Of a stretch of DNA of 64,000 nt, positions 14,977 through 23,146 are shown piece by piece. The notes under the pieces are model-generated. The model did not search any database. It saw only the letters and a list, made by a program, of their open reading frames with translations, and had not been told where the DNA came from. Source of the DNA: Rahnella sikkimica (lineage in GTDB: Bacteria; Pseudomonadota; Gammaproteobacteria; Enterobacterales; Enterobacteriaceae); contig NZ_CP019062.1 in assembly GCF_002951615.1 (NCBI RefSeq), positions 4,340,001 to 4,404,000 on the forward strand. Reading direction: 5' to 3'. Each line of letters starts with the position of its first letter. The first letter of the stretch is position 1. The translations under genes and the position numbers were made by a program.

Positions 14977-15023
14977 AAACATTAAAACTCAGGTCACCGG
15001 AGCCGGGTTGAATACGGCGAGGG
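14977..15023. repeat. 47-bp direct repeat, left copy (garD 3'-end duplicate)
   Basis: These 47 bases are identical to 21563-21609. In the right copy they encode, on the minus strand, the last residues of GarD (AVFNPAPVT), the stop codon and about 12 bases beyond. The left copy is not attached to a garD gene. It marks the left edge of the Rhs/VgrG insert. Confidence 0.93.
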
Positions 15024-15062: not shown

Positions 15063-15255
15063 CTAATTGATGGAGGTGTAGTTATATCCTTTTAGTTTTA
15101 ATTCACCATCCACTATAACGAACAAAAATGTTTCATTTACGTTTCTCTTCGAAAACTCAGAGGTATAAATCAATAGCACTTCGTTATCAGCTATTAGATG
15201 ATAAATTTTCTTTTTAGAGATGAGTGTGTTTTTTTTGAAAATACCTAAGGTTCAT
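15063..15255 (-). pseudogene. frameshifted small ORF downstream of the Rhs immunity gene
   Basis: A frame opens at the ATG at 15255 (MNLRYFQKK) and stops after 13 codons. If one A is dropped from an 8-A run (near 15230) it continues as KNTLISKKKIYHLIADNEV and onward to GYNYTSIN and a TAG at 15063, giving 63 residues with normal-looking composition. I do not recognise the protein. It starts 20 bp after the immunity-position gene and could be a second immunity gene, a relic, or a gene with a sequencing error or slippage in the A-run. Confidence 0.45.
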
Positions 15256-15274: not shown

Positions 15275-15565
15275 TTAATTATATTTTTTAGGGAAAGTAC
15301 ACCCTTTACTCTCAGCCCAGAAGCTAATACCAATAACAACAAGTCCCAACAACGCTCCCCCATATATGCAAAGTAACATTAAGATGGAAAATGCTTTATC
15401 TTTAAAAGAAAATACATATCCATACATTTCAAACATACCATCCACGGAATTGAAATTTATGTTGTTTTTTTTGCAAAATCGCCATCCTGAAAAAATCGCT
15501 ATCGAGATGATTACCACTGCAAAAAAGAAAAAAGAAATTCTAAGTATTTTTATTTCTTCGCACAT
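15275..15565 (-). CDS. small two-helix membrane protein, probable Rhs immunity protein
   Basis: This 96-residue protein has two clear hydrophobic helices, about residues 10-28 and 59-83, separated by a hydrophilic loop with KKNNINFNSVDG. I know no family for it. Its ATG is 7 bases after the rhs stop, and its GAGG ribosome site overlaps that stop, so translation is coupled. A gene directly behind the variable tip of an Rhs toxin is normally its immunity gene. A membrane location would suit protection against a toxin that acts on or in the inner membrane. The base composition is AT-rich like the toxin tip. Confidence 0.7.
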   Translation of the reverse strand: MCEEIKILRISFFFFAVVIISIAIFSGWRFCKKNNINFNSVDGMFEMYGYVFSFKDKAFSILMLLCIYGGALLGLVVIGISFWAESKGCTFPKKYN

Positions 15566-15572
15566 ATAAACC

Positions 15573-18500
15573 TCAGTAATTTATCGGTCCCGATACACTT
15601 GGTGTATATGGGAGATTTATTTCAGGGCCAGCGCCAGCACCAAAACCAATGTATATTTCTGGCCACGTTGATGTTTGCACTACTTCAATACTAAATTCCC
15701 CCAACCCCAGTGCAAATCCAGCGCCCACTTTTAAGTCCTTAGCGTCAGGGTCTCTAAACTTTAATCCACATGTTGCCGATGCTCTTAGGCCAACAGCTGC
15801 TATTGGTACACTCCATAAAGCAGAGGCACCTGATTTTTCATTAAGTGAGGCAGTAGCTGACAAACCTGTACCCACTGCAACAGTTCCAGTAACTCGACAT
15901 TCTCCCGTTGCAATTGGGCTGGTTGGAGCTGGTGCCATCGCAGTAGTAATATCTTCTGAAGATGCTCCATTTTGCATTATTGATATAGCTAACGAACCTT
16001 TCTCGCCAATCCCCGGTAAATTGACTATTGAACCAACCCCATTTAGTCCACGAGGGTCTATATATTTATTAGGCTTGTTAAAACCGTAACCATATAAATT
16101 CCATCCCCCTCTCAACCCAATCGGATCCTGCGTAATATACCGTCCCTGCATCGGGTCGTAATAACGGTGACGGTTGTAATGCAGCCCTGACTCCTCGTCG
16201 TAATGCTGGCCCTGCATTCTGATGGACTGACGCAGTTTGTACGGGTTGAAAATATCCACCGCGTTGCCCCAGACGTCCATGACCGCGCTCCATTCCACTT
16301 TGCTGGTTTTGTGGTTGATGAGCGCAATGGGTGTGCCGAGGTGGTCGCAGTGATAGAGTTGCAGTTTCAGCGCCTCGCCTTCCGGCATCGGGTCGAGCCA
16401 CAGCGCCAGGTTTTCGGCTTTCAGGCCGACGGCGTCCAGCCACTGCTGATTGTCGTCGCTGAGACGATTTTTACGGATGTCCTTTTCGATTTCATTCAGC
16501 CGCAGATGCAGTTCGGTCGGCAACGCGATGCCGTTTTCCTCTTCGAGCTTTTCCGCCAGCGAGCGGTGGCTGTCCTCCATGCGGGTGTGTTCGGCGCGCA
16601 GAAGCGGGACGAAGCTGTTCGGGTGATAAATCGTGTGCAGCTGGGTGTCGCGATTTTCGGTCAGCACCAGACGGTCGCCGTCCCAGCCGAACCAGATATT
16701 CTGGGTTTCTGTTTCGCCGGATTGCGGATTGATGTGCGTGACGCGCTTGCAGACGCGCCGCCCGAGCGGGTCACAGATATAGCGCGCCTGCGTCTGAATC
16801 AGGCCGTCTTCTTCTGTCGTGAAACGGGTCAGCCGGTGCGCCTGGTCATAGGAGAAGTGGCTGATGGCCCCGCGCGGTGCTTCCCGCCAGCCGGCGCGGT
16901 ACGGGCGTTTTTCCGTCAGGTTGCCAAACTTGTCGTGTTCATAAATGTACCGCTCATCGCGCTGGATGCGGTTGTGATACCAGACCGGCAGCGTGTCAGC
17001 CAGCGGCGTGTTCAGGTCGGGGTGTGTGCAGTTGCGGTTGCCGGCGGCATCGGTGAAGGTGGCGAGAAAGCCGTCCGGCGAACTGACGCTGTTCAGACGC
17101 CCGGCTGGCGTGTAAGCATAGTGATGGTCGCCGAGGCCGGTGGTCATCTGCGTCATCTGACCGGCGGCGTTGTACTGATAACTCTGCACGCGCCCGTCGA
17201 AACCGACCTCCTGAATCAGCCGGTCCATGACGTCGTAGCTGAATTTCGTGTCAGCGCCGTTTTCGTTAACCAGCCGCATCAGCCTGCCCGCGCTGTCGAA
17301 TTCAGTCTGACGGGTCAGCCCGCCTTCGTTCTGTGCGGTTGGATTGCCGCGCTCATCGTAGGTTTGCGTGCTCTGGCTGCCGTCCGGTCGGGTGACGGCG
17401 ATGACGTCTCCGGCGGCGTTATATTCCCAAACCGTTTTCCCGCCCGCGCTGTCCTCACGCGAAATCCGACGTCCGCGCGCATCGTACGCAAAGCGGGTTT
17501 TCATTCCTTCTTCGTGCTGGATTTCGACCGGCTGACCGTCGCGGTTATAGCGGTATGACGTCTTAAACCCGGAGCAGTCAGTGAAGGCAATCAGCAAGCC
17601 GGCCGCGTTCCATTCCAGCGTCTGACGCCCGCCTGCCGCGTCTTCGGTGGCGCACGGCTGCGCGCTTTTATCGTCTGCGTAATGATAGCGACGGGTCTGG
17701 TGCAGGGCGTCAGTCTCGGCTATCAGGCGCCCAAACGCATCATATTCCTGGCTCACGCGGCGTCCGTCCGGCGCGGTGCTGCAAACCAGCTGCCCTTGTT
17801 TGTTGTAGTTGAACTGGCTGCGCTTTTCGCCGCCCGGATGCAGAATCGCGCCCAGCGTGCCATTGGCCGGGTTGATATGAAATTCGGTGGTGCGCCCGGA
17901 AATGTCGGTTTGCGATATCAGCTGGCCGCGGTTATTGAACGCGCTTTGCGTGCAGTTGCAGTCGGCCTGTTCGAGTCTGACTACGCGGCGCAGACCCTGC
18001 TCGCCCTCGAAGTGATAGACGCGTAAGCGTCCAAGGCTGTCGGTGACGCGGGTCTGGTTTTTGCTGTATTCAAATTCGTAAGACAGGCCGCCGGGATTGA
18101 CCTGCGAAATGACTTTTCCGAAGGCGTCGTACACGTAATTCGTGGCAGGGCGTCCGGCGTAGCGGTGGGCAATCATCAGACCGGTGTTTTCGCTATGCCA
18201 GTCAAACTGCCGGACAATTTCGCCCGCGCGGTCATACACGGTTTTCAGCTCACCGCGCGCGGTGTAGTCGTAGCGCACCAGCGGTCTGGTCGGTAAATCC
18301 GGAAAGGCTAAATCCTTCGTCAGCCAGACGGCGGAAAGCCGCACGCCGTTATCCTCACCCCAGCCGGTGTTCAGCGCGGGTTTGAAGTCCGGCAGCGTCA
18401 TCAGTTCAAGGCGAAAACGCCGCCCGACGCTGTCAGTGACGCCGGTGATTTGCCCGGCGAATTCGCCTTCGGCGTCGCGATGATAATTAAGCTGATTGCC

Positions 18501-19148
18501 GAAACGGTCGGTCAGCCCGAGCAGTAACCGGCTGGCAGGCAACGGGCGCGGCAGCACGTCTTCCGCAGTTTCGGGCAGTTGCACGCAGCCTAAAATCCAC
18601 CACGGCCCGGTGGCGTCATTAGCGACAAAATAGTAATGCGGGCTGTTGCGGAGTTCGTCCGGTAACACCTGCCAGAGCTTGCTGAGCGGATGCGCCCCGG
18701 TTTGTTTATCCACACCGCCGCGCGCCAGCCAGAGATTTTCGCTGTGGCTGAACACAATCTGCCCCGGCGGCAGGTGATGAAAATGAATGCTCCGCCCGGC
18801 ATTGTCGTTAAGGATGAGTTCATCGGTGCGGATTTGCAGGCGGATATCTGCCGCCGCAGCCCAGCCGGGGCCGAACATTCCGACGGGCGCAGGCGTATCG
18901 GTTTTATAACTGCTGTAGCTGCGAGAAAGGACAAAAGGCAAAGAAGCGGGCATTGCGATATCGGTCTCGCCGGGAAGGACTTTGGCGCCGAGGGACGGGT
19001 TAACGGGGCTGCCTACCACCACACCGCCGGGGCAAACCGAGCAAGCCACGCCGGTCGGTGCACCAATCATCACGCCCGGCGAGCCCTGAACAATCGGGCC
19101 GCCGATGGCGGTATTATCGAACTGCCGTGCGGCAGGAAATCCGGTCAT
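15573..19148 (-). CDS. rhs: PAAR-Rhs effector with unassigned C-terminal toxin tip
   Basis: This 1191-residue protein has a PAAR-like N-terminus (residues 1 to about 55, starting MTGFPAARQFDNTAIGGP), a DUF6531-type plug (VNPSLGAKVLPGETDI), a long run of YD/RHS repeats that forms the cocoon, and the core end YDPMQGRYITQDPIGL. The self-cleavage motif PNKYIDPRGL fits PxxxxDPxGL and ends at residue 1035. The remaining 156 residues (bases 15573-16043) are the tip: Gly/Ala-rich, mostly uncharged, without a single histidine, and without any nuclease motif I can see. The tip DNA is more AT-rich than the core. It lies 27 bp after vgrG, so it is probably loaded on that spike for type VI delivery. No EagR-type chaperone gene is present. 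Confidence 0.9.
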   Translation of the reverse strand: MTGFPAARQFDNTAIGGPIVQGSPGVMIGAPTGVACSVCPGGVVVGSPVNPSLGAKVLPGETDIAMPASLPFVLSRSYSSYKTDTPAPVGMFGPGWAAAADIRLQIRTDELILNDNAGRSIHFHHLPPGQIVFSHSENLWLARGGVDKQTGAHPLSKLWQVLPDELRNSPHYYFVANDATGPWWILGCVQLPETAEDVLPRPLPASRLLLGLTDRFGNQLNYHRDAEGEFAGQITGVTDSVGRRFRLELMTLPDFKPALNTGWGEDNGVRLSAVWLTKDLAFPDLPTRPLVRYDYTARGELKTVYDRAGEIVRQFDWHSENTGLMIAHRYAGRPATNYVYDAFGKVISQVNPGGLSYEFEYSKNQTRVTDSLGRLRVYHFEGEQGLRRVVRLEQADCNCTQSAFNNRGQLISQTDISGRTTEFHINPANGTLGAILHPGGEKRSQFNYNKQGQLVCSTAPDGRRVSQEYDAFGRLIAETDALHQTRRYHYADDKSAQPCATEDAAGGRQTLEWNAAGLLIAFTDCSGFKTSYRYNRDGQPVEIQHEEGMKTRFAYDARGRRISREDSAGGKTVWEYNAAGDVIAVTRPDGSQSTQTYDERGNPTAQNEGGLTRQTEFDSAGRLMRLVNENGADTKFSYDVMDRLIQEVGFDGRVQSYQYNAAGQMTQMTTGLGDHHYAYTPAGRLNSVSSPDGFLATFTDAAGNRNCTHPDLNTPLADTLPVWYHNRIQRDERYIYEHDKFGNLTEKRPYRAGWREAPRGAISHFSYDQAHRLTRFTTEEDGLIQTQARYICDPLGRRVCKRVTHINPQSGETETQNIWFGWDGDRLVLTENRDTQLHTIYHPNSFVPLLRAEHTRMEDSHRSLAEKLEEENGIALPTELHLRLNEIEKDIRKNRLSDDNQQWLDAVGLKAENLALWLDPMPEGEALKLQLYHCDHLGTPIALINHKTSKVEWSAVMDVWGNAVDIFNPYKLRQSIRMQGQHYDEESGLHYNRHRYYDPMQGRYITQDPIGLRGGWNLYGYGFNKPNKYIDPRGLNGVGSIVNLPGIGEKGSLAISIMQNGASSEDITTAMAPAPTSPIATGECRVTGTVAVGTGLSATASLNEKSGASALWSVPIAAVGLRASATCGLKFRDPDAKDLKVGAGFALGLGEFSIEVVQTSTWPEIYIGFGAGAGPEINLPYTPSVSGPINY

Positions 19149-19175: not shown

Positions 19176-21326
19176 CTAGACGAACGGAGGAGTAGAGCCA
19201 TTTCTCGGCGTGTTATCGCCAGAGTCTGTTGGGGTTTGCGGCGGCTGTTCCGTCAGGCCGCAGTTGATATTGATGACCGCCGAGTCGCTGTTGACCATCA
19301 ATACTCCCTGCATGTGCAATTTTGTACCGGAGAGGAAGATGCTGCCATCTTTGGTGAGCACGATTTTGGCGCTGCCGCAGCCGAGCTCCAGATGGTCGCC
19401 AGCCGTGTAAATAGCGACTTTGCCGGCGCTTTCCGTTTTACGCTCGCCGACGTTGATCGACATTTTTTGGCCGACGGTAATCCCGTAACTTTTCCCCACC
19501 ATCAGCGTTTTGGCGATACCGATTTGCGAGCCCTGAGTCATTGCGACGGTCGTGTTCATAATGCCGCCCACGCTGACCTGATAGGCCATCCCAACGGACA
19601 AAGTACTGATGACACCCACCGATTCTGTTTTAAAGACGCCGATAGTTTCGGACTGGTTCTGACCGATCTTGACGACCTGATTCGCGGTAATGGTTTCAAT
19701 CTGATTGGCACCGACAGTCTGGATCTGGTTTTTGGCAATGGTAACCGCCTGATTACCGCCCACATTTTCTGTATGGTTTGCCACCACATCCGTCATCCGG
19801 TTGTTCAGTACTTCTGTCTTCATGTCCTTCTGAGCGTGCATAGACAGCAATTCGTTACCTGTCGCATCCTCAAACATCAGCTCATTGAAGCCACTGCCTT
19901 TATAGGTCTGGGAGCGGATCGCCATCTGCGTTTTGGTGCCCGGTAAGCTACCCGGTGAACGGTTGCTGGCATGGTAGGTTCGGCCGGTAATGATTGGCTG
20001 ATCCGGATCGCCGTTGAGGAAGTCGACAATGACCTCTTGCCCGATACGGGGGATGGCGATATTGCCAAATCCGGTGCCTGCCCATGCCTGTGAGACACGT
20101 ATCCAGCATGAGCTGCCGTCATCAGCTTTGTTATAGCGATCCCAGGCAAATTTCACCCGTACGCGGCCATGTTCATCACAAAAAATCTCCTCTCCTGGCG
20201 GACCGGTAACGATGGCAATTTGCGGACCATCGATGCGTGGTTTCGCGAGTGGGGCGGGTCGCCAGGTTGTTGAGGCAGTGATCACTTCGAATTTATTGCT
20301 CAGGGTCGTCCCCTGGCCCTCGCTGCCAATAAGGGCCTGCGGCTGGTGACCGTGCATTTCAGTGGTAACGACCTGCCATTTGGCATTCAGATCTTCGCGG
20401 GGATGATCTGTCAGGGAGAAGCAAACGCCCGGTTGCAATTGCGGCGTATTACTGTTGCCCACGACCACATCGGCATTGTTACGCCAGCCTTCAATCTGAT
20501 AACGGGAAAAATCCTCGCCGTGCTGCTCATCTTTGAAGCGTCCCGGATAATCAAAAATTTCATACATGCCGCGCTGATATTTTAGTGCTGAAGGCTCCTC
20601 CTGATAACGGGCTGCCCAATTGGGGGCAGTGAACGTGTAATCCTGGGTAGTGACCTGAGAAGGTCTGATTTGCGCACTACGGCGGAAATTGTTAATGCAA
20701 TAGGTTTCAGCCTCGGAGGCTGCATTGGGGTTGTAAGGCAATTTCCCCACACTACTCAGCACGCTGCAGCTATCTGAAAAGGTAAGTTTTTGAACGCCAG
20801 ATTGAAGAGATTCTTCTTCGTAAAAAAATATTCCTTCCTCTGCGACCAGACGGGAAATGAAATCGAAATCACTCTCCATAAACTGAACGCAAAATTCGCG
20901 ACGTCCATGGGCTGATCCAAAAAGAGTGTCGTGCTTAGGGATACCCATTTCTTCAAGCAACGGCCTGATAATGGTCGCGACATCTTCATTCTGAAAACTC
21001 CGGCAGTTACGACGATGCGTGCTGCGCCAGAATTCGGGACGAAGGATCATTCGATAAAGTGTCTGATGTTTGCCGGTATCGCCTTGCTCGCAGAACACAA
21101 CAATTCCGCGTACCCGGCGTTTTATTTCTTCACCTTGCCAGATAGTGAGCGTCGCTTTCTCGTCCAGTACCTTTTCGAACCCGATAGCCGGGTCGGTGCT
21201 GGCCAGTGTCAGACGCAGAGTGAAGAGCTCTGAATACGACTGGGAAAGCTCAAAGTTGACTACGGCGAAAGTATTCTCAGGCGTGCTGCCTGCTGTGAAG
21301 GTAAAACGGGTGCCATTAGCCGGCAT
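19176..21326 (-). CDS. vgrG: type VI secretion spike protein VgrG
   Basis: VgrG is the trimeric tip of the type VI secretion tube. This 716-residue copy has the gp27-like N-terminal part (FTFTAGSTPENTF onward), the gp5 OB-fold core near residues 370-470 (CDEHGRVRVKFAWDR, QAWAGTGFGNIAIPRIG), and a beta-helix needle of short repeats such as NQIQTVGANQIETI up to about residue 660. It ends in a Pro/Thr-rich tail (residues 692-716) with no added effector domain. It is the first gene of the vgrG-rhs-immunity unit. No other type VI structural gene is in the window, so it must rely on a system encoded elsewhere. Confidence 0.95.
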   Translation of the reverse strand: MPANGTRFTFTAGSTPENTFAVVNFELSQSYSELFTLRLTLASTDPAIGFEKVLDEKATLTIWQGEEIKRRVRGIVVFCEQGDTGKHQTLYRMILRPEFWRSTHRRNCRSFQNEDVATIIRPLLEEMGIPKHDTLFGSAHGRREFCVQFMESDFDFISRLVAEEGIFFYEEESLQSGVQKLTFSDSCSVLSSVGKLPYNPNAASEAETYCINNFRRSAQIRPSQVTTQDYTFTAPNWAARYQEEPSALKYQRGMYEIFDYPGRFKDEQHGEDFSRYQIEGWRNNADVVVGNSNTPQLQPGVCFSLTDHPREDLNAKWQVVTTEMHGHQPQALIGSEGQGTTLSNKFEVITASTTWRPAPLAKPRIDGPQIAIVTGPPGEEIFCDEHGRVRVKFAWDRYNKADDGSSCWIRVSQAWAGTGFGNIAIPRIGQEVIVDFLNGDPDQPIITGRTYHASNRSPGSLPGTKTQMAIRSQTYKGSGFNELMFEDATGNELLSMHAQKDMKTEVLNNRMTDVVANHTENVGGNQAVTIAKNQIQTVGANQIETITANQVVKIGQNQSETIGVFKTESVGVISTLSVGMAYQVSVGGIMNTTVAMTQGSQIGIAKTLMVGKSYGITVGQKMSINVGERKTESAGKVAIYTAGDHLELGCGSAKIVLTKDGSIFLSGTKLHMQGVLMVNSDSAVININCGLTEQPPQTPTDSGDNTPRNGSTPPFV

Positions 21327-21562: not shown

Positions 21563-21609
21563 AAACATTAAAACTCAGGTCACCGGAGCCGGGTTGAATA
21601 CGGCGAGGG
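21563..21609. repeat. 47-bp direct repeat, right copy (native garD 3' end)
   Basis: It is identical to 14977-15023. Here the repeat covers the last eleven sense codons of garD, its TGA and 12 bases of trailer. Confidence 0.93.
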
Positions 21610-23146
21610 CGTTATGGATACCCCAGGTGTCGGACCAGGTTTTCTTGCGGCCGCTGGCGATGTCCAGAATAAAGTGGAACAACTCCCAGCCGACGTCTTC
21701 GATGGTGGCATCGCCGGTGGCAATAGTGCCCGCGTTGATGTCCATCAGGTCATGCCAGCGGTTGGCGAGCGTGGTGCGCGTCGCCATCTTAATGACCGGC
21801 ACTGCCAGCAGGCCGTAGGGTGTCCCGCGACCGGTGGTAAATACCTGAACGGTAATGCCTGAAGCCAGTTGCTGGGTTCCGCAGACAAAATCGCTGGCAG
21901 GCGTGGCGGCGTAAATCAGGCCTTTTTTTGTCGGTCGCTGTCCGGGTGACAACACTTCCGAGATGGCGCTGGTGCCGGATTTGGCAATCGAGCCCAAGGC
22001 TTTTTCGACCACGTTCGCGAGGCCGCCTTTTTTATTGCCCGGCGACGGGTTGGCGCTGCGGTCAGTCTGACCCATCGACAGGTAATTATCGTACCAGGCC
22101 ATTTCTTCCAGCAGGCGTTTGCCGACATCCACATCCGCCGCGCGCGGTGTCAGCAGATGAATGGCGTCGCGGACTTCGGTCACTTCCGAGAACATCACGG
22201 TCGCGCCGCAGCGCACCAGCAGGTCGGACGCAAAGCCGACCGCCGGATTCGCCGTGACGCCGGAGAACGCGTCGCTGCCGCCACATTGTGTGCCGACGAC
22301 CAGATCCGACGCCGGGCAGGTTTCGCGCTGGCGACGGTTCAGGCGTTCCAGATGGAACTGCGCGACGGTGAGAATGTCGTCCACCATTGACTGGAAGCCG
22401 ACGTGCTGTTCATCCTGCAAACGCACGATGTGGGTGTCATCGAGAGAAATCGCCTGCACGTCCGGTGTACCTTCCAGCAGACGTTCCGGCTGCAATTTCT
22501 CGCAACCCAGCCCGACCACCATCACTTCGCCACCAAAATTCGGGTTCAGCGCCAGATTGTGGATCGTACGGATCGGCACAATGGCGGCAGGTGCGTTGAT
22601 TGCTACGCCGCAGCCGTAAAGGTGATTGAGCGCGACAACGCCGTCGACGTTGGGGAATTTGGGCAATAAATCACGTTCGATGATTTTCACCACGTAATCC
22701 ACCACGCCCGCAACGCAGTGAACGCTGGTGGTGATCCCCAGAAGATTTTTCGTGCCCACGCTGCCGTCGGCGTTGCGATAACCTTCAAAGGTGTAGCCTT
22801 CCAGCGGTGGCAACAGTGGCGGAACGCGTGTCGCCAGTGGCAGGCTGCTGAGTTCCGGTGCAACCGGCAGTTCCACCAGGGATTCATCAATCCAGCCGCC
22901 TTGCGCGATGTCACGCACGGCATAACCAATGACTTCGCCATAACGAATAATATCGCCACCTTTCGCAATCGGGGCTAAAGCGACTTTGTGACCTTGCGGG
23001 ATGTGTTCAATTAATTCCAGACCGTTAGAAAATCGGGTGCCGGCCTTTAAACCATTGTCATTCACAATAATAGCGACGTTGTCGCTTTCGTGAACTTTTA
23101 TAAAAAGCGCGTCGGTTGCATGTTCTTTATCTTTATTACGTGACAT
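21575..23146 (-). CDS. garD: galactarate dehydratase
   Basis: GarD removes water from galactarate (mucate) to give 5-dehydro-4-deoxy-D-glucarate, the first step of galactarate use. It is 523 residues, equal to E. coli, and very similar: a SAF-like N-terminal domain ([18 protein letters not shown]), then the UxaA-type catalytic part with [26 protein letters not shown] and [17 protein letters not shown]. The family uses iron. The ATG follows GGAGACAGTT. It is divergent from garLRK across a shared control region. Its 3' end is duplicated on the far side of the Rhs island. Confidence 0.96.

Follow-up and report, generated by a model that had tools for sequence, protein, structure and literature searches.

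A candidate Ntox25-type depolarising toxin at the tip of an Rhs effector of Rahnella sikkimica

We analysed a stretch of 64,000 nucleotides from Rahnella sikkimica (contig NZ_CP019062.1, positions 4,340,001 to 4,404,000), called here the window. On its reverse strand, at 15573-19148, lies an rhs gene encoding a protein of 1191 amino acids, in which 156 residues remain between the motif PNKYIDPRGL, presumably the site of self-cleavage, and the stop codon (15573-16043). The locus raises the question of what this C-terminal tip does to a target cell. The original prediction placed the tip in no recognised family and preferred a toxin acting on membranes to one acting on nucleic acid. Using profile comparison and predicted structures, we found that the tip appears to be a divergent homologue of the Ntox25 domain (PF15530). 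We propose, with a probability of roughly 78%, that the Rhs effector carries, as its tip, an Ntox25-type toxin domain directed at bacteria, which would depolarise membranes and be blocked by a 96-amino-acid protein encoded next to it.

The tip and its relationship to Ntox25

The coordinates of the open reading frame agree with a tip of 156 codons plus a stop directly after PNKYIDPRGL. The tip is rich in glycine (22), alanine (20), serine (16) and valine (11), contains no histidine and has charged residues at only 20 of its 156 positions (E8, K5, D4, R3), as described earlier; the sequence quoted for its second half, VTGTVAVGTGLSATASL, was also found. It is more AT-rich than the Rhs core, with a guanine-plus-cytosine (GC) content of 45.4% for 15573-16052 versus 59.8% for 16053-19148. 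Elsewhere in the block the GC content is 52.3% in the vgrG gene and 31.6% in the gene for the 96-amino-acid neighbour. The base composition of the tip is consistent with tip exchange, as had been suggested.

The tip gave nothing above the curated cut-offs in Pfam or NCBIfam and nothing in PADLOC, and at that level the statement that it belongs to no recognised family holds. The absence of HNH, deaminase, ADP-ribosyltransferase and peptidase signatures noted earlier was borne out, and we rejected a nuclease, deaminase, ADP-ribosyltransferase or peptidase tip on the lack of any match in these three resources. By ancestry the statement fails. In Pfam the tip alone aligned with Ntox25 at residues 15-124 with an E-value of 0.0086 and 16.4 bits, below the curated cut-off of 25. 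A direct match (E 8.6e-4, 31% over residues 17-143) links our tip to the tip of a CdiA protein from another genome (G071), whose own Ntox25 score is 240.4 bits. When seven tips were compared with four Ntox25 domains using hhalign, the probability was 95.3% (E 2.1e-8), and an alignment of 27 tips, 22 rows of which hhalign kept, raised this to 96.0% (E 4.5e-9). In a control run the true score was 59.2; column shuffling (200 runs) gave at most 21.3, block shuffling (200 runs) at most 45.9 and reversed profiles 17, and none of the 400 shuffles equalled the true score. The N-terminal part alone scored 29.2 against Ntox25, where 100 shuffles gave at most 11.6; for the beta part alone the score was 41.1, with a maximum of 19.9 from another 100 shuffles. 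Because each part passes by itself, the whole tip, beyond the first helices, appears related to Ntox25, and these comparisons suggest a common ancestor for helices and beta part alike. The preference for a membrane toxin over a nuclease remains the best interpretation, for a tip that does have relatives.

Three further Rhs proteins with the same tip were found among 1257 candidates. A search with the tip protein across 392 genomes of the family matched four, namely its own, G246, G250 and, weakly through the CdiA tip, G071; five other genomes of the genus among those 392 gave no tip match. The genome itself has another copy of the tip (C1:537865-538335), 73% identical, and six tip loci were found in Rahnella laticis (94%), Buttiauxella brennerae (58%), Pseudocitrobacter faecalis (59%) and three species of Pseudomonas (46-53%). 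A wider protein search, in which 7996 candidates were scored, returned 30 proteins with E-values of at most 0.01. The 27-row alignment, covering Enterobacterales and Pseudomonas, consists of 18 of these proteins and nine loci; the other 12 proteins were left out as fragments, near-copies of included loci or sequences with odd ends, and some near-copies are still among the rows. No match was obtained in plasmids with the tip protein, or in E. coli genomes with the tip-plus-partner DNA. Apart from the own genome, a class-wide search with seven tips picked up two genomes out of 368, with E-values of 0.001-0.004, and one with PF15530 yielded 0 of 369, which is no evidence of absence since the controls were silent too.

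Across eight tips and the four Ntox25 domains, only S20, G29, G63, R90, G96, F99, G118 and G138 are invariant. Two cysteines, C49 and C92 in the numbering of the 27-tip alignment, are invariant in the 27 tips and absent from the four aligned Ntox25 domains; a disulphide between them, formed in the periplasm of the target, is possible.

One Rhs tip from a relative of P. sichuanensis (L032:1477-1998) reached E 0.00155 with the tip profile. Judged by eye, it has the sequence of the N-terminal helices in common (SLASHML-NGAS-EV) and a different-looking glycine-rich remainder; with a lipoprotein gene following it as well, we did not count it as a member of the family. This tip gives the impression that the two helices form an entry module open to exchange.

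The two-segment partner

The gene for the 96-amino-acid protein (15275-15565, reverse strand) begins 7 base pairs past the stop codon of the tip. Kyte-Doolittle windows of 19 residues exceeded 1.5 within residues 1-32 and 57-85, and these two hydrophobic stretches support the earlier view that the partner is a membrane protein. It matched no family above threshold in Pfam or NCBIfam. We presume that it is the immunity protein, and it probably protects its owner.

A gene for a two-segment protein of 91-99 residues was present within 11 base pairs downstream of the tip at 10 of 10 loci at which the downstream sequence was inspected (the window, L004, L005, L007, L018, L019, L021, L023, L028 and L029). 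At L028, and at L029 if an upstream start codon is used, the partner gene overlaps the end of the tip. Distances between tips and between partners were correlated over the 10 pairs (0.80), a value that none of 2000 permutations reached. When Enterobacterales are compared with Pseudomonas, identity is 31-48% for the partners and 45-58% for the tips.

Other arrangements of the partner were also seen. The Pseudomonas locus L019 has two additional partner genes with no tip ahead of them. Genome G000 contains a broken remnant of a third partner gene (C1:4116392-4116556, L038) with three TGA codons in frame. In a protein from Pseudomonas sichuanensis (P0041), a remnant of the tip continues in frame into a two-segment protein resembling the partner. 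The second rhs gene of the R. sikkimica genome (L007:4558-8915), with the tip that is 73% identical, has its own 96-amino-acid partner (61%).

Predicted fold, mechanism and rival explanations

A first AlphaFold2 run with seven tips was too poor to use (mean predicted local distance difference test, pLDDT, 43.6). Structure prediction had been proposed earlier as a check, and AlphaFold2 run from tips alone gave a barrel of middling confidence, with beta strands predicted from residue 45 to 153 and means over ten-residue blocks of 72-83, with one of 62. The tip probably folds as a small barrel on this model. Searching the PDB by sequence gave nothing convincing (best E 0.06), and a viral structure library gave no match below E 0.001.

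These predictions fit what has been published on Ntox25. Ntox25 domains were first predicted to be RNases and are reported to disrupt membrane potential; their AlphaFold2 models are tapered beta-barrels, and Tse4 is said to look alike (PMC11630599). EC93 CdiA-CT2 is an Ntox25 toxin according to Table 2 of that paper and its reference 14 (PMC8190604). In the latter, EC93 CdiA-CT2 is reported to cause DiBAC4(3) staining in 77% of target cells, to be blocked by the cognate CdiI, and to depend on AcrB for its effect. Our tip and the Ntox25, or type 14, CdiA-CT ionophores of E. coli have in common profile homology, a mostly beta composition, a hydrophobic partner encoded alongside and a place in a polymorphic toxin system. 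They differ in carrier, CdiA there versus Rhs after a DPxGL motif here, and our tip is below the Pfam cut-off, lacks FGPY and has two invariant cysteines missing from the four Ntox25 domains. Ntox25 partners are about 150 amino acids long, whereas the 96-amino-acid two-segment partner of our tip is not detectably related to them. The listing of Ntox25 in PMC3482391 gives delivery by type II and type V secretion systems and filamentous repeats, and RHS is not among its entries.

The computed support consists of the homology to Ntox25, the barrel prediction, the pairing and co-divergence with the partner, the adjacency of VgrG and the presence of VipB genes, and from it we infer the following steps. 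VgrG and the type VI machinery would deliver the Rhs protein into an adjacent cell of a Gram-negative bacterium, where the Rhs cage would cleave itself after PNKYIDPRGL and free the 156-residue tip. Two N-terminal helices may assist the tip in engaging the inner membrane, and the small glycine-rich beta-barrel would then leak ions or protons, collapsing the membrane potential. In the producer, the 96-residue two-segment protein would sit in the inner membrane and block the tip. An apparently orphan Rhs tip would thereby be placed in a family with a reported effect, and Ntox25 would gain delivery by Rhs and the type VI secretion system (T6SS) together with a separate immunity family.

Several observations weigh against this interpretation. 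The tip does not reach the 25 bits that Pfam sets for Ntox25; when eight tips were scanned singly, Ntox25 appeared in two, both sub-threshold (this tip, E 0.0086; L023, E 0.1, 12.9 bits), and the other six gave no Ntox25 in Pfam. The best of the 200 block shuffles reached an hhalign probability of 91.6, and the raw hhalign probability alone is therefore weak evidence. FGPY is the motif named for Ntox25 (PMC3482391); in the alignment with four Ntox25 domains the eight tips keep its F and not GPY, reading F-[RSGA]-D-P at this position. Polar residues are invariant or nearly so in the 27 tips (E48, R50, N68, E69, R87, K95, K102, E129 and E141), seemingly more of them than a plain barrel needs, and an enzymatic site is possible. 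The AlphaFold2 model overall has middling confidence (pLDDT 69.2; predicted template modelling score, pTM, 0.55), and its predicted helices, at residues 12-24 and 29-35, are poor (block means 50-58). The ten tip-partner loci derive from just seven genomes, and shared host descent accounts for part of the correlation between tip and partner distances. When 15 partners were compared with five presumed CdiI proteins, the hhalign score of 10.6 was reached by 60 of 100 column shuffles and by all 100 block shuffles, and this shuffle-level score does not support a relationship of the partner to the Ntox25 immunity proteins. Full membership in Ntox25 is disfavoured because the tip is below the Pfam cut-off, GPY is lost and the immunity proteins are not detectably related; in our reading, the tip is a divergent, presumably Rhs-delivered branch of the Ntox25-type depolarising toxins with a presumed immunity family of its own.

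The conserved polar residues, together with the original prediction of Ntox25 as an RNase (PMC11630599), would suit a cytoplasmic enzyme, such as a nuclease or NADase, with a membrane neighbour that only blocks entry. We consider this very improbable, given the lack of an enzyme family match in Pfam, NCBIfam and PADLOC, the absence of histidine, the invariant residues shared by tips and Ntox25, which do not resemble a catalytic set, and the depolarisation reported for the homologous Ntox25 toxin of EC93 (PMC8190604). The AcrB requirement of EC93 CdiA-CT2, for which opening of the AcrB proton path was raised as an alternative (PMC8190604), suggests a different route, in which the tip makes no leak itself but locks a transporter of the inner membrane in an open state by binding to it, while the neighbour shields the transporter. 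This is unlikely, if somewhat less so than an enzyme: the dependence on AcrB has been attributed to an N-terminal domain, putatively for entry, that accompanies Ntox25 (PMC11630599), and the Rhs tip has just 44 residues ahead of the first predicted strand. A wide lytic pore, or one passing large solutes instead of an ion-selective leak, seems as improbable as the enzyme. In its favour, other T6SS effectors without enzyme motifs, such as TpeV, permeabilise cells (PMC8386463). Against it stand the depolarisation reported for the homologous Ntox25 toxin (PMC8190604) and the narrow lumen expected of one eight-stranded barrel.

A further possibility, compatible with a depolarising Ntox25-type tip, is that this copy is a decaying effector that has kept its tip as an allele and lost delivery. 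The Rhs core of this locus is, near residue 658, about 187 residues short in YD repeats compared with the second copy, and 180 compared with P0013, with YNAAGQ motifs flanking the missing stretch, and the shortened cage may fail to enclose the tip. The second copy itself is in another frame near its N-terminus, and BLAST matches start at residue 174 of the Rhs protein of this locus. Against decay, the deletion is in frame, and both tip and partner keep intact reading frames, with identities of 94% and 96%, respectively, to their counterparts in Rahnella laticis. We regard decay as doubtful, yet clearly more plausible than the enzyme, transporter or wide-pore explanations. The tip family stands independently of this shortened copy.

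Tse4 of P. aeruginosa is a T6SS-delivered depolarising toxin with an AlphaFold barrel said to resemble Ntox25 (PMC11630599); it is not described as an Rhs tip, and we liken it by description, not by sequence. Tse5, an Rhs effector of P. aeruginosa, is likewise counted by description among the closest known systems. The type 10 alpha-helical ionophores of contact-dependent inhibition (CDI), such as EC93 CdiA-CT1, have immunity proteins of 72-100 residues that are predicted two-helix hairpins (PMC11630599). The type 10 toxin is a predicted five-helix bundle and our tip is predicted to be beta; the immunity proteins and our partner resemble each other in size and hairpin pattern. The Ssp4 family, with a mostly helical model (PMC12669606), was set apart from the fold of the tip, by description only.

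The boldest part of our proposal is a link in fold that depends on one model of middling confidence. With Foldseek, the tip model matched the Vap proteins VapB, VapD and VapG at a best E of 0.018, with template modelling scores (TM-scores) of 0.41-0.45 over the query. The Vap fold is an eight-stranded barrel in which strands 4 and 8 are exchanged (PMC4118825). We tentatively suggest that the Ntox25-type ionophores and this Rhs branch share a strand-swapped barrel, and the same mode of proton leak, with the Vap proteins of Rhodococcus equi; equally tentatively, a small glycine-rich "bald" barrel in or on the bilayer might pass protons. The Vap family differs from the tip in delivery, host and target, identity in the structural alignments is 6-9%, and by sequence the tip does not belong to it, Ntox25 being the sole Pfam family for the tip up to E 1. 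An internal two-fold sequence symmetry of the barrel, as in the VapD structure, was not supported (score 12.9, with 4 of 100 shuffles as high). VapA may make membranes leak in a way quite unlike known pore-forming proteins (PMC10100859); the tip offers a testable link in fold to an antibacterial depolarising toxin. If the link is true, the Vap virulence proteins, which collapse proton gradients, would share descent with a weapon used between bacteria or have converged on its form, with this Rhs branch possessing an immunity family of its own. Neither Vap nor Rhodococcus occurs in the main text of the 2024 CDI paper (PMC11630599), and a search of openly accessible papers for Vap proteins together with T6SS or polymorphic toxins, judged by titles and the openings of abstracts, gave none on such a link.

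The Rhs effector and its insertion site

The Rhs core (16044-19148, reverse strand) contains YD repeats, shows Rhs core domains in Pfam and ends in PNKYIDPRGL. Its N-terminus reads PAAR-like by eye, and Pfam gives no PAAR match. A DPxGL boundary and a variable tip on an Rhs core are features that the protein shares with T6SS Rhs effectors. The vgrG gene (19176-21326, reverse strand; Pfam, NCBIfam), 27 base pairs upstream of rhs, encodes the VgrG (TssI) spike protein that is the presumed carrier. A search for the T6SS restricted to VipB found genes for this protein at two genomic sites.

The block of vgrG, rhs and partner is bounded by two copies of a perfect 47-base-pair direct repeat. The right copy (21563-21609) lies at the 3' end of a UxaA-like gene (21575-23146, reverse strand), and the left copy (14977-15023) has the same sequence. 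An exbD probe matched in 14 of 14 genomes of the genus searched. Among 12 exbD loci, eight have uxaA directly beside exbD with no tip or partner, two have tip and partner (the locus in the window and L040, whose layout resembles that of locus L018 from R. laticis), and two have neither uxaA nor tip within the stretch covered. The site thus exists free of the block at 8 of 12 loci, which argues that the block is a discrete insertion. The ExbD protein encoded in the window is identical to that of R. laticis.

Between the left repeat and the partner gene lies a remnant of a lipoprotein gene (15063-15227, reverse strand), recognised by eye, with an intact counterpart at the corresponding site in R. 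laticis (L018:1063-1461) that stands alone. Other lipoprotein genes follow other glycine-rich Rhs tips (L032:1983-2456 and L005:1730-1969). The L018 and L032 genes are DUF4019-like at sub-threshold scores (21.1 and 24.2 bits; cut-off 26.5), and, judged by eye, the remnant and the gene at L005 resemble them. Perhaps the remnant is an orphan immunity gene of another tip, and the lipoproteins belong to another toxin-immunity pair.
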